Shown: one piece after another, positions 8,790 to 42,037 of the stretch
How positions within the stretch are numbered: the stretch's first letter is position 1
Layout of the letters: every line of letters begins with the position of its first letter
Assembly (NCBI RefSeq): GCF_900108505.1
Contig: NZ_FNWU01000013.1
Location: 1 to 42,037, forward strand
Reading direction: 5' to 3'
DNA: 42,037 bases
Source: Halopenitus malekzadehii
GTDB taxonomy: Archaea; Halobacteriota; Halobacteria; Halobacteriales; Haloferacaceae
Translations under genes and position numbers: made by a program
The notes under the pieces: model-generated
Seen by the model: the letters and a program-made list of their open reading frames with translations, nothing else
What the model was told of the DNA's origin: nothing
Database searches by the model: none

Positions 8790-9461
8790 TCAGGCGTCCC
8801 GGGTGTCGTCCCGATCGGTGGCCTCGAGCGCCGTGCCGACGATCGACCCGGGACCCTCGTTCCGCATCGATGCCTCGCGCCGAAGCGCGACGTAGGCGTC
8901 GATCGGGAGGTCGAGCGTGATCCGACCGGGGACGATGTCGTGTTCACGAAGTGCCGCCTCGATCGGCGTGCCGTCGTTGACGGCCGAAGCGATCGCCCGC
9001 ACGTCGCGAACGGTGAGGCCGCCGTCGATGGCCCCCCATGCGAGCAGATACCGGTCCCGGCCGCCGACGCGCGCGATGTGTTTCGCTGCGGTCGGTGGGA
9101 TGTGTCCGCGAGCCACGTGACGGCGGATCGCCTGCGGCAGGTCGTGGACGCGGGCCCACTTCCGAATGAACGAGACCGAGACCCCGTCGCCGGCCCGCTC
9201 GGCTGCGTGTTTATACGACCCGGTTCCACGGACGAGCGCCGCGCAGGCGGCTGCTCCACGCAACATCAGCACGTGGTCGTCGCCGCCGACGTCGCCGGTC
9301 GCGAACCGGTGGACGACCGTCGCTGCCTCCGCGACGCTGTCGGGATCGTCGGGATCGAAGTCGATCGCCTCCGCGGCCCGGTCGCCGGTTATCTCGGGGT
9401 CGGCCCGGACGACCGGCTCCCCGACCGGGGAGCGGCGGTCCGAACCTGGCTCGTCACTCAT
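8790..9461 (-). CDS. haloarchaeal protein with ParB-like helix-turn-helix (DUF7119-like)
   Basis: A 223-residue protein starting at ATG 9461 (MSDEPGSDRRS). Residues about 80-150 follow the order of the KorB/ParB HTH core: an alternating helix pair VSVSFIRKWARVHDLPQAIR, then HVARGHIPPTAAKHIARV and a final helix GLTVRDVRAIASAV. This is the segment by which ParB recognises parS. The N-terminal ParB CTPase/nuclease motif (GERR) is absent. The C-terminus (ITLDLPIDAYVALRREASMR) resembles a ribbon-helix-helix strand and helix. Probably a DNA-binding protein; the partner is unknown. Confidence 0.75.
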   Translation of the reverse strand: MSDEPGSDRRSPVGEPVVRADPEITGDRAAEAIDFDPDDPDSVAEAATVVHRFATGDVGGDDHVLMLRGAAACAALVRGTGSYKHAAERAGDGVSVSFIRKWARVHDLPQAIRRHVARGHIPPTAAKHIARVGGRDRYLLAWGAIDGGLTVRDVRAIASAVNDGTPIEAALREHDIVPGRITLDLPIDAYVALRREASMRNEGPGSIVGTALEATDRDDTRDA

Positions 9462-37648: not shown

Positions 37649-38086
37649 TCACTCGCCGTCGTCGACGCCGTCGGCGTCGTCGGGCGTCGCCGCCGTCATC
37701 GACCACACGGCGATGGCGCCGAGCAGCACCGCCGGGATCATCGGGAGCGCGAGGTAGGTCCCGAAGAAGGTGAGCTCGAAGCGACCGAGAACGTATGGAT
37801 AGAGGTAGATGACGCCCGGAATGAGGAGGGTACAGGTGATCAACGCGATCGTGAGCGCCCAGCCCGCGCGGCCGAATCCGTCCGGCTCCGGTTCCGGCTC
37901 GTCGTGTGCGTCTCCGGCGCTGCCGGCAGCTGCCGACGTGTCGGCGTCGGTGACCGCCCCCGTGCCGTCGATGCGGACGGTTCGATCGTCGGCGTCGGGG
38001 CTCCGGGTACCGGCGCTCGCATCGTCACGGCTGGTGCCGTCGTCGGTCATCCCGCGGTCGTCCCCGGCAGCGCGGTCATCGTTCAC
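37649..38086 (-). CDS. membrane protein with long acidic cytoplasmic tail
   Basis: 145 residues. The first 70 are disordered Asp/Ala/Thr/Pro-rich (a run EPEPEPD). Two hydrophobic helices follow (about 76-97, 107-130, IALITCTLLIPGVIYLYP), and an acidic end. No family recognised. It overlaps the upstream oxidoreductase gene by 11 bases, so the two are probably cotranscribed. Confidence 0.65.
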   Translation of the reverse strand: MNDDRAAGDDRGMTDDGTSRDDASAGTRSPDADDRTVRIDGTGAVTDADTSAAAGSAGDAHDEPEPEPDGFGRAGWALTIALITCTLLIPGVIYLYPYVLGRFELTFFGTYLALPMIPAVLLGAIAVWSMTAATPDDADGVDDGE

Positions 38087-39116
38087 TGTCGGGAATTACG
38101 GCTACCTTGCCAAAGCCCTCACGGTCCTCGAGCAGCCGGTGGGCCGCGGCGGTCTCGCTCATCGGGAGGGTCTCGCGGATCCGCGGCTCGAAGGTGCCGT
38201 CCCAGACGAGTTCGAGGACGTCGTCGAGCTCCCCGGGCGTCGCCATCGTCGATCCGATCACGGACAGCTGGTTCCAGAAGATCCGGTTGAGCCCGGCGTC
38301 GGGGTTCGGCCCGGTCGTCGCGCCGCAGATGACGAGCCGGCCCCCCTTCGCGAGCGAGGCGAGGGAGTCGGGATAGGTGGCCGCGCCGACGTGGTCGACG
38401 ACGACGTCGACGCCCCGTCCGTCGGTGAGATCCCGGACGCGGTCGGCGAAGTCGGTCGCCTCGTAGTCGATCGTGTGGTCGGCGCCGCAGTCGGCCGCGT
38501 GGCGGCGCTTCGCCTCGGTCGAGGCGGTGGCGAACACCTCGCAGCCGGCGTGGGCGGCGATCTGGACCGCCGCGTGCCCGACGCCGCCGGAGGCGCCGAG
38601 GACGAGCACGCGCTCACCCGCCGTGACGTCTGCGCGCGTGTGCAGCATTCGCCAGGCGGTTCCGAACACGAGCGGGGCCGCCGCCGCGGTCGGCCAGTCG
38701 ACGCCCGCGGGCACCGGCACGAGGTTCTCGGCAGGGACCGCCGCCAGCTCGGCGTGGACGCCCGGCCGGTGTTCGCCGATGATCGCAAACTGCGGGCACA
38801 GCGTCGGGTCGCCGTCGCGACAGAACTCGCAGGTTCCGCAGGAGACGCCCGACGCGACCGCCACGCGGTCGCCCGGCCCGAAGCGGTCGACGTCCGCGCC
38901 GACAGCCTCGACGACCCCGGCCGCGTCACTGCCGGGCGTGTGGGGCAGTTCGAGGTCGATCCCCGGGAGCCCTCGGCGCGTCCACACGTCGAGATGGTTG
39001 AGCGCGCCCGCCTTCACGTCGACCAGGACTTCATCGCGTGCCGGCTCCGGGTCCGGAACCTCGGCGTACTCGATCACGTCACGATCGCCGTGATCGGCGA
39101 ACTGAACCGCGTGCAT
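38076..39116 (-). CDS. zinc-type alcohol dehydrogenase / quinone oxidoreductase
   Basis: 346 residues of the MDR superfamily. The catalytic domain has HTPGSDAAGVVEAVG and the structural zinc segment CGTCEFCRDGDPTLC. The cofactor domain has VLVLGASGGVGHAAVQIAA (NADPH-binding GxxGGVG). Residues normally binding a catalytic zinc (Cys-x-Asp...) are not clear, so a quinone oxidoreductase-like role is likely. The stop overlaps the next gene by 11 bases. Confidence 0.9.
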   Translation of the reverse strand: MHAVQFADHGDRDVIEYAEVPDPEPARDEVLVDVKAGALNHLDVWTRRGLPGIDLELPHTPGSDAAGVVEAVGADVDRFGPGDRVAVASGVSCGTCEFCRDGDPTLCPQFAIIGEHRPGVHAELAAVPAENLVPVPAGVDWPTAAAAPLVFGTAWRMLHTRADVTAGERVLVLGASGGVGHAAVQIAAHAGCEVFATASTEAKRRHAADCGADHTIDYEATDFADRVRDLTDGRGVDVVVDHVGAATYPDSLASLAKGGRLVICGATTGPNPDAGLNRIFWNQLSVIGSTMATPGELDDVLELVWDGTFEPRIRETLPMSETAAAHRLLEDREGFGKVAVIPDSER

Positions 39117-39269: not shown

Positions 39270-40127
39270 ATGGCTGCCCTCCGCTCCCTCCGTCCAGCCG
39301 TCGGTGCCCTCACACGCAATCCGATCCTGATCGTTCTGGTCGGGCTCTATGGACTCGTCCAGCTTCCCCAGTTCGCCCTCCAGCAGTCGCAGCCGCTCGT
39401 CGCGGCGGCCGTCTCGCTCGGGCTCACCGGGCTGCTGATCCTCTTCGTGCCCTTCTTCCAGGGCGGGATCATCTCGATGGCCGACGAGGCGCTCGCGGGC
39501 CGGACCGGCCTCGACGCCTTCATCGCCGCCGGGAAGGCGAACTACGTCAGCCTGCTGGTGGCGTACCTCGCCGTCTTCGCGATCAACCTCGTCTTCGGGT
39601 TCGTCGCGTTCGTCGCCGGATTCGTCTTGGTCCTCTTCGGCGGTGCCGGCATCGCGTCGGGGAGCCCCGAACTGGGGCTTGCGACGCTGGCGATCGTCGC
39701 GATCGTCGGGCTCCTGTTCGTGCTCGTGTACCTGATCGTCAACTTCGCGATCCAGTTTTACGCCCACGCGATCGTCCTCGACGACGCCGATATCATCGCG
39801 GGCTTCAAGCGAAGCGTCGGTCTCGTCCGCCGGAACCTCCTGGGCGTCCTCGGCTACACGGCGGTCCTGATCGCCGGCAGCCTCGTCATCGGCGGCGTGA
39901 GCAGCGTCGCCTCGCTCCTCCTGTCGCCCGGACCGAGCGCGCTCCCCCTGCCGGAGGCCTCCCTGCCGCTGCTGGTCGTGGCCGCCGTCGTCTACGTGGG
40001 CACGATCGCCGTGGGTGGGGCGTTCTACGCGGCCTACTCGGTGGCGTTCTACCGATCGATCTCCGGAGGCGTCGCCGGCGGTGTCGGCGGTACCGCCGGG
40101 GCCGGGACCCCGGGGAGTCGCCTCTAG
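39270..40127 (+). CDS. DUF7847-like integral membrane protein
   Basis: 285 residues and about six membrane helices, with GLYGLVQLPQFALQQSQP near the start and RSVGLVRRNLLGVLGYTAV. It resembles a haloarchaeal membrane family I associate with DUF7847. The tail GGVGGTAGAGTPG is Gly-rich. Function unknown. Confidence 0.8.
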   Translation: MAALRSLRPAVGALTRNPILIVLVGLYGLVQLPQFALQQSQPLVAAAVSLGLTGLLILFVPFFQGGIISMADEALAGRTGLDAFIAAGKANYVSLLVAYLAVFAINLVFGFVAFVAGFVLVLFGGAGIASGSPELGLATLAIVAIVGLLFVLVYLIVNFAIQFYAHAIVLDDADIIAGFKRSVGLVRRNLLGVLGYTAVLIAGSLVIGGVSSVASLLLSPGPSALPLPEASLPLLVVAAVVYVGTIAVGGAFYAAYSVAFYRSISGGVAGGVGGTAGAGTPGSRL

Positions 40128-40261: not shown

Positions 40262-40696
40262 TCAGTTTGGGTCGTAGGGATTCGTCGCGGTGTCGAGTCG
40301 ATAGACGTCCTCAGCTGCGTCGAAGTCATCATCGAACGCATATAGGTAGCCGAGCCCTTCGGTCTGCATATACGCGATGATGCAGGCATCGACGAACGAG
40401 AGGGATTCATATTGACGGAAGAGAGCTTTCCCCGTTGTGAGGGCGTCGGCGGTGAGTGAGTCGATGTGGAAGCGGGCGTTCTCTTCGAGGCGATCGAGGA
40501 GATCGACGGCTGAGCTATGCCCTGTATGGGTCGTGAGGCCGTTGAGCGTCTCGGCGAGTACGTAGTCGAGAACGACTGCCTCCGGTAGCGTTCCATCGTC
40601 GATGCCGTGGAGCACCGGGAGTGCAGCGTCGTGTGAACTATCCCGCCTGTACGCGGCCGCAAACAGGACCGACGTATCGATGAGTGTGCGGGACAT
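40262..40696 (-). CDS. vapC: VapC-type PIN-domain toxin
   Basis: 144 residues. PIN acidic residues are visible: Asp7 in LIDTSVLFAA, Glu in LAETLNG (about 49), Asp in FVDACIIAYM (about 102) and Asp in FDDDFD (about 121). VapC proteins are RNases, often cutting tRNA. It begins directly after the vapB stop (TAG then ATG, no gap), so the pair is one operon. Confidence 0.93.
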   Translation of the reverse strand: MSRTLIDTSVLFAAAYRRDSSHDAALPVLHGIDDGTLPEAVVLDYVLAETLNGLTTHTGHSSAVDLLDRLEENARFHIDSLTADALTTGKALFRQYESLSFVDACIIAYMQTEGLGYLYAFDDDFDAAEDVYRLDTATNPYDPN

Positions 40697-41005
40697 CTAC
40701 TCGACGTCGACGTCACCAGAACGCGAAGCGCTCTGGTTGGCAGACGAGTGCCGTCGGCTCTCGTCGACGCCCCAGGCGTCGTGGTCACTCGTCACATCGG
40801 TCGTCTCCGCACCGGCGTAGCCGTCGAAGTCGGCGAATGTGCCCGTTTGCTGTTGGATGATTTCCACCCGAACGCTTCCATCCTCTTCGAGGTGCCAGCG
40901 GAGCTGGTCGCCGTCGTCGATCTCGAGTTCACGCCGGATGTGGGCGGGAATGTTTGCCTGATTCCCGGACACCTTGCTTTCGGCGTCGATTCGATCGCTG
41001 CTCAT
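40697..41005 (-). CDS. vapB: VapB-like antitoxin (AbrB/SpoVT fold)
   Basis: 102 residues. The N-terminal swapped-hairpin DNA-binding domain reads SKVSGNQANIPAHIRRELEI and DDGDQLRWHLEEDGSVRVE. The remaining half is Asp/Ser/Thr-rich and would cover the toxin. The last residues (Ala-Asn-Gln-Ser-Ala-Ser-Arg-Ser-Gly-Asp) are encoded by a repeat hairpin at 40716-40736 that also occurs near 32200. Confidence 0.9.
   Translation of the reverse strand: MSSDRIDAESKVSGNQANIPAHIRRELEIDDGDQLRWHLEEDGSVRVEIIQQQTGTFADFDGYAGAETTDVTSDHDAWGVDESRRHSSANQSASRSGDVDVE
40716..40736. repeat. GAA-loop hairpin inside vapB
   Basis: CCAGAACGC (40716-40724) and GCGCTCTGG (40728-40736), 8 of 9 bp paired, loop GAA. Its left arm with CGTCA before it (40711-40724) matches 32197-32210 exactly over 14 bases. 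Confidence 0.75.
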
Positions 41006-41337
41006 ATTTTCCGGTAGGTGACCAGCCGTGAAAAGTCTAGTGTGCCGTCACACTACCACTGTAACGGGAGAGACCTTCTGGGAGTGGACATAGACTCATT
41101 CTGCGGCCGCTGGGGGCCGTTCTCGTCCTCGCGGACTCCAATGAGGTCGCCGACGTTGATGCGGCACACGCCGTTCTCAACACACCGTTCAACGATGTGT
41201 GTCGCTTATGAGTGGAAAACGTGGGTGCGTCGTCCGACCACTTTGTGTGCGGACGAGCCGCTTCCGTCCCACCAGGGTCGTCGCATTTGGCGATCTCCTT
41301 GGGGAAGTAGTGGCCGTCCGGTTTCTGGCGGTTTCCG

Positions 41338-41627
41338 GGGTCCAAGTCGGCGTCCTCGGGCTGACGAAGACTGCCGCCCTCGAGACCGCCGACGTCGACG
41401 TGCGCGTGAACGCCGTCTGCCCCTGGTTCATCGAGACGCCGCTGCTCGAGGAAGGCGGCATCACGAGCGATCCCGAGGTCCGCAAGCAGATCGAGGGCCG
41501 ACACGCGATGAATCGACTCGGCAGGCCCGAGGAAGTCGCAACCGCCGTGACCTGGCTCTGGAGCGACGAGGCGTCCTTCGTCACCGGCGAGGCCCTCGAC
41601 GTCGACGGCGGCTACCTCAGTCAGTAG
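41338..41627 (+). pseudogene. short-chain dehydrogenase, C-terminal fragment
   Basis: The last 95 residues of an SDR, from GVLGLTKTAALETADVDVRV and NAVCPWFIETPLLEE to VTGEALDVDGGYLSQ. The Rossmann nucleotide motif and the intact YxxxK active site are missing. Just upstream the DNA still contains TCCAAG, out of frame by one base relative to GVLGL, as if a Ser-Lys active site had suffered a one-base deletion. A longer frame to 41199 is not SDR-like. The stretch 41006-41337 carries no recognisable gene. Confidence 0.7.
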
Positions 41628-41812: not shown

Positions 41813-42037
41813 GCCTCATCCCCACGAGGAGTCGTCTGAAGCTCGACCCCGACGCATCCGGGCCTCCATCAGCCGGGATCTTCAACCCCACGAGGATTCG
41901 TCTGAAACACGGGTGCCGAACTTAGCCTCACGGTGCCGAATAGGGCTTCAACCCCACGAGGGTTCGTCTGAAACTGTAAGACGTGTGGGTACCGGAGTCA
42001 ATCGCTCGGCTTCAACCCCACGAGGGTTCGTCTGAAA
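41813..42037 (-). CRISPR. distal end of a type I-B-like CRISPR array
   Basis: Four repeats of 30 bp (41813-41842, 41879-41908, 41945-41974, 42009-window end). The consensus starts GCTTCAACCCCACGAGGGTT and ends CGTCTGAAAC. Spacers are 36, 36 and 34 bases. The first repeat has five substitutions, the second two (first base and position 18), and the rest match, which marks the left side as the leader-distal end. Read on the minus strand the repeat is GTTTCAGACG..., the usual haloarchaeal orientation. The leader, most spacers and the cas genes lie beyond the right edge. Confidence 0.96.

Follow-up and report, generated by a model that had tools for sequence, protein, structure and literature searches.

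An array end in Halopenitus malekzadehii that very probably belongs to a type I-B CRISPR locus with a CreTA ortholog

Repeats, spacers and gene remnants at the window end

The stretch of DNA analysed here (hereafter the window) comprises 42,037 nucleotides of Halopenitus malekzadehii and corresponds to bases 1-42037 of contig C36 (NZ_FNWU01000013.1), which is 43013 bases long and belongs to an assembly of 3.14 Mb in 41 contigs. At positions 41813-42037, the window ends in four 30-base repeats that depart from the array consensus, GCTTCAACCCCACGAGGGTTCGTCTGAAAC on the + strand, by 5, 2, 0 and 0 changes. To their left lie a vapBC-like pair, two gene remnants, and two genes that are conserved in the two congeners examined, G001 (which appears to be Halopenitus persicus DC30) and G002 (2 contigs). 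The features of this region are as follows:

38076..39116, - strand: zinc-type alcohol dehydrogenase (ADH), conserved neighbour with 92-93% identity in both congeners
39270..40127, + strand: DUF7847 membrane protein; its position next to the old array end is conserved in G001 and G002
40262..40696, - strand: VapC-like PIN-domain toxin, 144 aa (PIN, E 4.8e-19)
40697..41005, - strand: VapB-like antitoxin of MazE/AbrB type, 102 aa (MazE-type, E 5.2e-6)
41116..41363, - strand: IS605-type TnpB gene remnant, reading frame broken, assigned through an intact relative
41348..41627, + strand: C-terminal remnant of a short-chain dehydrogenase
41813..41842, - strand: oldest CRISPR repeat, at the array terminus, with 5 changes
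41843..41878, - strand: spacer 1, 36 nt, the oldest, no match in viral_contigs
41879..41908, - strand: CRISPR repeat, 2 changes
41909..41944, - strand: spacer 2, 36 nt
41945..41974, - strand: CRISPR repeat, consensus (0 changes)
41975..42008, - strand: spacer 3, 34 nt
42009..42037, - strand: CRISPR repeat, 29 of 30 bases present, 0 changes over them

The repeats, their coordinates and their change counts (5, 2, 0) agree with those given in an earlier note made from the sequence alone, and the stepwise decay that it described is seen. When both strands of the window were scanned with up to 10 mismatches, only these four repeat sites were found, all at the window end, and three of the four reached the gathering score of the Rfam model RF01337 (CRISPR-DR24) on the - strand. 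Across the whole genome, with up to 3 mismatches allowed, the array repeat occurs at 20 sites, which are confined to C36 and a second contig, C31, and lie all on one strand; together with the more decayed first copy this amounts to 21 repeats, between which 18 spacers of 32-37 nt are complete, and the array is the only one with this repeat in the genome. Matches of the array to a plasmid collection, taken as a whole rather than separated spacer by spacer, were mostly to the repeats of other haloarchaeal arrays. The window scan, the genome-wide count, the Rfam match and the plasmid matches together make it scarcely credible that the window-end repeats are a chance or non-CRISPR repeat, and we rejected chance. 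A mosaic array, whose decayed repeats would stem from an older resident cassette, was also rejected, since the first two repeats, compared by eye, carry changes that do not match the repeat of G001 or that of G002.

The same note had placed vapBC and a gene remnant beside the array. The first holds up as a vapBC-like pair: a PIN toxin (69.6 bits over a cut-off of 23.6) adjoins a small antitoxin of the AbrB/MazE type (MazE_antitoxin, 26.8 bits over 24.7), the arrangement by which VapBC is recognised, and the NCBIfam VapC model scored under its cut-off for the toxin (25.2 of 80). The remnant is the C-terminal part of a short-chain dehydrogenase. Dispersed relatives of the second remnant are found at 72-80%, and an intact relative has OrfB_IS605 and TNB domains; the broken frames of the remnant had no match in a Pfam scan, and the TnpB assignment comes from the intact relative. 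The TnpB and short-chain dehydrogenase remnants adjoin each other beside vapBC (41116-41627).

The distance from DUF7847 to the array end is a few hundred bases in both G001 and G002 and 1.7 kb here, and neither vapBC nor the short-chain dehydrogenase/TnpB remnant is present at the array-end position of these two congeners. The closest G002 relative of the PIN toxin is on another contig, and a search of G001 at E up to 0.001 gave no relative of it. In our view, vapBC and the remnant probably entered by insertion at the array's old end, with loss in both congeners as a possible alternative.

Continuation of the array toward a leader and cas operon

The last repeat of the window is cut by a run of 221 N (contig positions 42038-42258), after which 12 perfect repeats continue up to the end of the contig at 43013. 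Contig C31 begins with five perfect repeats, the last ending at 296, and these are followed by a leader, cas2-1-4-3-5-7-8b, CreTA and cas6. The expectation that the array continues rightward is thus upheld, since 12 repeats lie past the N gap and five more on C31, and a leader stands after them. This contradicts the outcome by which the earlier note would have been refuted, an array that stops at once on the right and lacks a leader. The leader comprises the 104 bases after the last C31 repeat, has a single copy in the genome, and is identical to that of Halobellus captivus (L027) in 96 of 104 alignment columns, to that of Halorubrum laminariae (L023) in 94 of 105 and to that of Haloarcula hispanica (H. 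hispanica) in 82 of 107; over the loci of 13 relatives, 59-96 columns are identical (59/109 being the lowest).

All eight type I-B genes follow the leader on the - strand, in the order cas2, cas1, cas4, cas3, cas5, cas7, cas8b and cas6. Those that delimit the region considered below are:

C31 401-661, - strand: cas2
C31 6723-8879, - strand: cas8b
C31 8880-9275: CreTA ortholog, in the gap of 396 bases that separates cas6 from cas8b
C31 9276-10058, - strand: cas6

NCBIfam models identified Cas2 (39.4 bits; cut-off 24.5), Cas1b (419.7; 304.1), Cas4 (65.7; 65), Cas5b (271.9; 97), Csh2 (430.8; 171.55), Csh1/Cas8b (349.8; 104.05) and Cas6 (80.2; 58.65). Cas3 passed with the general models for core and HD, and its best-scoring model, that for type I-G, was under its cut-off (131.1 of 400); PADLOC ranked Cas3b and the other I-B proteins first. 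The operon carries the type I-B signature of Cas8b with Cas7/Csh2, Cas5b, Cas3, Cas6 and Cas4-Cas1b-Cas2. The earlier note had no cas genes in view, but they are not missing: the eight I-B genes and the leader are present on C31, and in a congener the genes are contiguous with the array.

As the leader and cas genes lie at the C31 end, the crRNA strand runs from C31 into the window, where the oldest spacers are found. Both the orientation that had been read from the window (leader to the right) and its identification as the leader-distal end with the oldest spacers are borne out, since leader and cas2 stand beyond the opposite end of the array.

C31 and C36 are unjoined in the assembly. The first 35 bases of C31 are identical to the last 35 of the window (42003-42037), comprising six spacer and 29 repeat bases, which hints that the two are adjacent in the assembly graph: spacer 3 may run straight into C31, or two spacers may share an end. 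Because of this identity, it is uncertain how the pieces are ordered and how many spacers separate C31 from C36. In G002, a kinase gene, the cas genes, a leader, 45 repeats, DUF7847, ADH, a hypothetical gene, NikR, TRAM and part of TFX form one unbroken stretch, and the kinase gene is the one found beyond cas6 on C31; this locus joins the neighbours of the C31 side to those of the window side and therefore bridges the break in our assembly. G001 has its kinase and cas genes at the end of one contig (C13) and its repeats, DUF7847 and ADH at the beginning of another (C14). Three things support the join of C31 to C36: the repeat that both carry, the leader that occurs only once, and synteny. We infer the join from these rather than reading it directly, and consider it well supported.

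The fact that C31 and C36 are separate contigs, and the degeneracy of the oldest repeats, would also fit an orphan array in the window, decaying and without a leader or cas genes of its own, with C31 carrying a separate array of the same repeat. Such an orphan is nevertheless very improbable in light of the single leader in the genome, the identical same-strand repeats found on both contigs and nowhere else, the 35 bases that the window end and C31 start have in common, and the G002 orthologs of window-side genes and of genes beyond the C31 operon, which flank one unbroken array-cas locus. Judged from the sequence, we assign a probability of about 0.93 to the reading that the window end is the leader-distal part of an ordinary type I-B array, split by an assembly gap rather than orphaned, with a cas operon that carries a CreTA ortholog.

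In such an array, transcription would proceed leftwards from the C31 leader. By analogy with the I-B family, Cas6 would cleave the transcript inside the repeats, and crRNAs from the window spacers would carry an 8-nt GTTGAAGC-type handle; Cas8b-Cas7-Cas5 with these crRNAs, together with Cas3, would act on matching DNA, and Cas4-Cas1-Cas2 would insert new spacers at the leader, with the three window spacers being the oldest. Under the proposed mechanism, the window repeats would have decayed because nothing renews old repeats.

The earlier note had further proposed that the old spacers record past invaders. Eight of the 18 spacers (1, 2, 3, 4, 15, 16, 17 and 18) gave no match in a scan of viral_contigs that used seed-end patterns with positions 6, 12 and 18 free. 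Against phages, the window array searched in a distant mode gave three weak matches with E from 1 to 4, for none of which a haloarchaeon is listed as host, and the C31 array gave no match; spacer 2, searched in 170 genomes with our own included, matched only its own array. When 17 of the 18 spacers were compared with approximately 61 kb of the genome's own sequence for self-targeting, with spacer 3 omitted as its flanking repeat is cut by N, at most 23 bases matched. Across the viral contigs (for the eight spacers), the phages and the 170 genomes (for spacer 2), the proposal therefore met with no identifiable invader, and immunity conferred by the array has no sequence support, as the searches run returned no protospacer.

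Relatedness of the cas cassette and its flanking genes

The CRISPR site is common to three Halopenitus genomes when our own is counted with its predicted join. The neighbours on the window side share 67-99% identity with their counterparts in both congeners (ADH 92-93%, DUF7847 88-90%, NikR 94%), and the Cas proteins are 59-80% identical to those of G001 and 29-59% to those of G002. Cas proteins of H. hispanica, a member of another family with an identical repeat, are 82-93% identical to those of C31, and those of Halobellus captivus 85-94%. The cassette is thus closer to the H. hispanica one than to those of its own genus (29-80%), although it occupies the site that the genus shares. The simplest reading of these pairwise identities would be that the cas cassette has been exchanged at one site. 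At this same site, the three genomes of the one genus hold cas cassettes of different relatedness with different repeats, and the locus is of interest in showing such CRISPR cassettes at one site within a genus. The description of the array's surroundings as a defence-rich plasticity zone, which was also made in the earlier note, stands in part: the cas cassette varies and vapBC with the short-chain dehydrogenase/TnpB remnant is absent at this position in the two congeners, but the CRISPR site itself is common to all three.

Two loci are among the closest parallels. The type I-B locus on pHH126 of H. hispanica N601 (NC_023011.1) has an identical repeat, the same gene order, CreTA between cas6 and cas8b, and a leader of 105 bases as compared with 104 here; it differs in being on a plasmid record, whereas the Halopenitus locus is flanked by genus-conserved neighbours. 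The I-B locus of G001 shares the same neighbours and the same cas order, but has a different repeat and a cas6-cas8b gap of 22 bases without CreTA. Several of the distal repeats of G001 stray further from that genome's own consensus.

The adaptation and effector genes of CRISPR-Cas systems are known to evolve as modules. This fits the pattern in Halorubrum laminariae (L023), where Cas4-Cas1-Cas2 are 95-97% and Cas6 85% identical to ours, and Cas8b, Cas7, Cas5 and Cas3 only 39-66%. L023 and L044 likewise point to module exchange, as their Cas2 is 97% and 91% identical to ours, respectively, next to effector genes that are much less similar (Cas8b 47% and 28%).

A CreTA ortholog with two putative target copies

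While the end of the array itself matters little, being the oldest part of an unremarkable I-B array, its neighbourhood matters more. The cas6-cas8b gap, which measures only some 22 bases in G001 and in several others, contains a degenerate repeat at C31 9193-9222 with spacer-like sequence next to it, on the strand opposite to the cas genes; the guide part of a CreA RNA is predicted to start at 9223. This repeat has a local score of 17. Shuffling the gap 2000 times gave no score above 15 on either strand, 500 one-strand shuffles gave none above 12, and 153 tiles of the genome's own sequence gave none above 13. Searched against the plasmid collection at E up to 0.1, the gap had one match only, to H. 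hispanica (79.8% over 246 bases), and the matching site lies between H. hispanica cas6 and cas8b, the position described for creTA (PMC8501985).

A mini-ORF, ATG AGA AGA TAA, and the ribosome-binding stretch GGGTGATC are kept relative to H. hispanica, as is an inverted repeat; the creT stop codon is TAA here and TGA in H. hispanica. Eight neighbouring genes use AGA for 2 of their 184 arginine codons, and the cas genes use it for 9 of 214. The CreT stem-loop is no more stable than shuffled sequence (z -0.78, with 43 of 200 shuffles as good), although its inverted repeat is conserved with H. hispanica. Judged by sequence, the C31 module is orthologous to CreTA, the RNA toxin-antitoxin of H. hispanica. 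In its predicted action, the crRNA-like CreA would direct Cascade in repressing CreT, an RNA that sequesters tRNA; loss of Cascade would then stop growth.

The target of CreA is described as a TTC motif with seed pairs at positions 1-5 and 7-11 (PMC8501985), and in H. hispanica one site matches at all 10 seed bases. In the present locus, the best site (C31 8958-8971) has the TTC PAM and 9 of 10 seed bases; it lies 93 bases upstream of creT, close to cas8b and beside a stretch that looks TATA-like by eye. The site orthologous to the H. hispanica target stands 48 bases from creT (49 in H. hispanica) and matches over six bases before shifting by one, for 5 of 10 seed bases. Both copies are TTC-flanked and, unlike in H. 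hispanica, are separated by an insertion of about 44 bases in the target region. Guide and target both have C at position 3, where H. hispanica has T, constituting a paired change. Throughout the 3.1 Mb assembly, only two sites have the PAM and a seed within one mismatch, the cas8b-side site included; when the gap was dinucleotide-shuffled 4000 times, two of the shuffles gave a 9/10 seed match, and no array spacer among 17 taken as control guides exceeded 5. The two copies might have arisen by duplication of the operator.

One guide with a target copy on the creT side and another on the cas8b side might repress the suicide toxin and the cas operon alike, which would merge CreTA addiction with CreR-type autoregulation in a cassette shared across haloarchaeal families at the resident site of a genus. 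We advance this dual role tentatively, as a suggestion with the odds against it. The module does resemble the CreR cas-regulating RNAs in having a crRNA-like guide with a partial match near a cas promoter. It is conceivable, though rather unlikely, that the degenerate repeat is a CreR-type unit that only autorepresses the cas genes and that the toxin part is dead: the best CreA target, next to the TATA-like stretch by cas8b, lies 93 bases away from where creT starts, and the orthologous target on the creT side has a shifted seed (5/10). Against a dead toxin stand the retention of the inverted repeat, of the ribosome-binding stretch and of the mini-ORF with its AGA pair, and the rarity of AGA in the flanking genes (2/184 arginine codons). 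According to PMC12737573, CreR is generally not coupled with a toxin gene, whereas the guide here is CreA beside an intact-looking creT. Returning to the dual role, what the locus offers is a CreTA module whose guide and target have changed together relative to H. hispanica and which has a second target by cas8b; coupling of addiction to cas dosage by one guide is therefore directly testable in H. hispanica.

The module core is matched at E up to 0.001 in six of 391 genomes of the class, our own included. A strong match in one of these (G221; 82% over 209 bases) reads like the H. hispanica module. Homologs of H. hispanica creTA have been noted in 4 strains (PMC8501985), and the Halopenitus CreTA could be among them; a literature search on Halopenitus with CRISPR gave no paper on CreTA, as judged by title. 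In four other haloarchaeal genomes (L100, L106, L107, L108, L109), only about 35 bases match, at 84-86%, and they correspond to the CreA repeat; these are perhaps array repeats or further ectopic repeats. Natrialba chahannaoensis (L033) has a 408-base cas6-cas8b gap (approximately 1387-1795) with an opposite-strand repeat-like match of local score 19, lacking ATGAGAAGA, which makes it a candidate CreTA of another kind.
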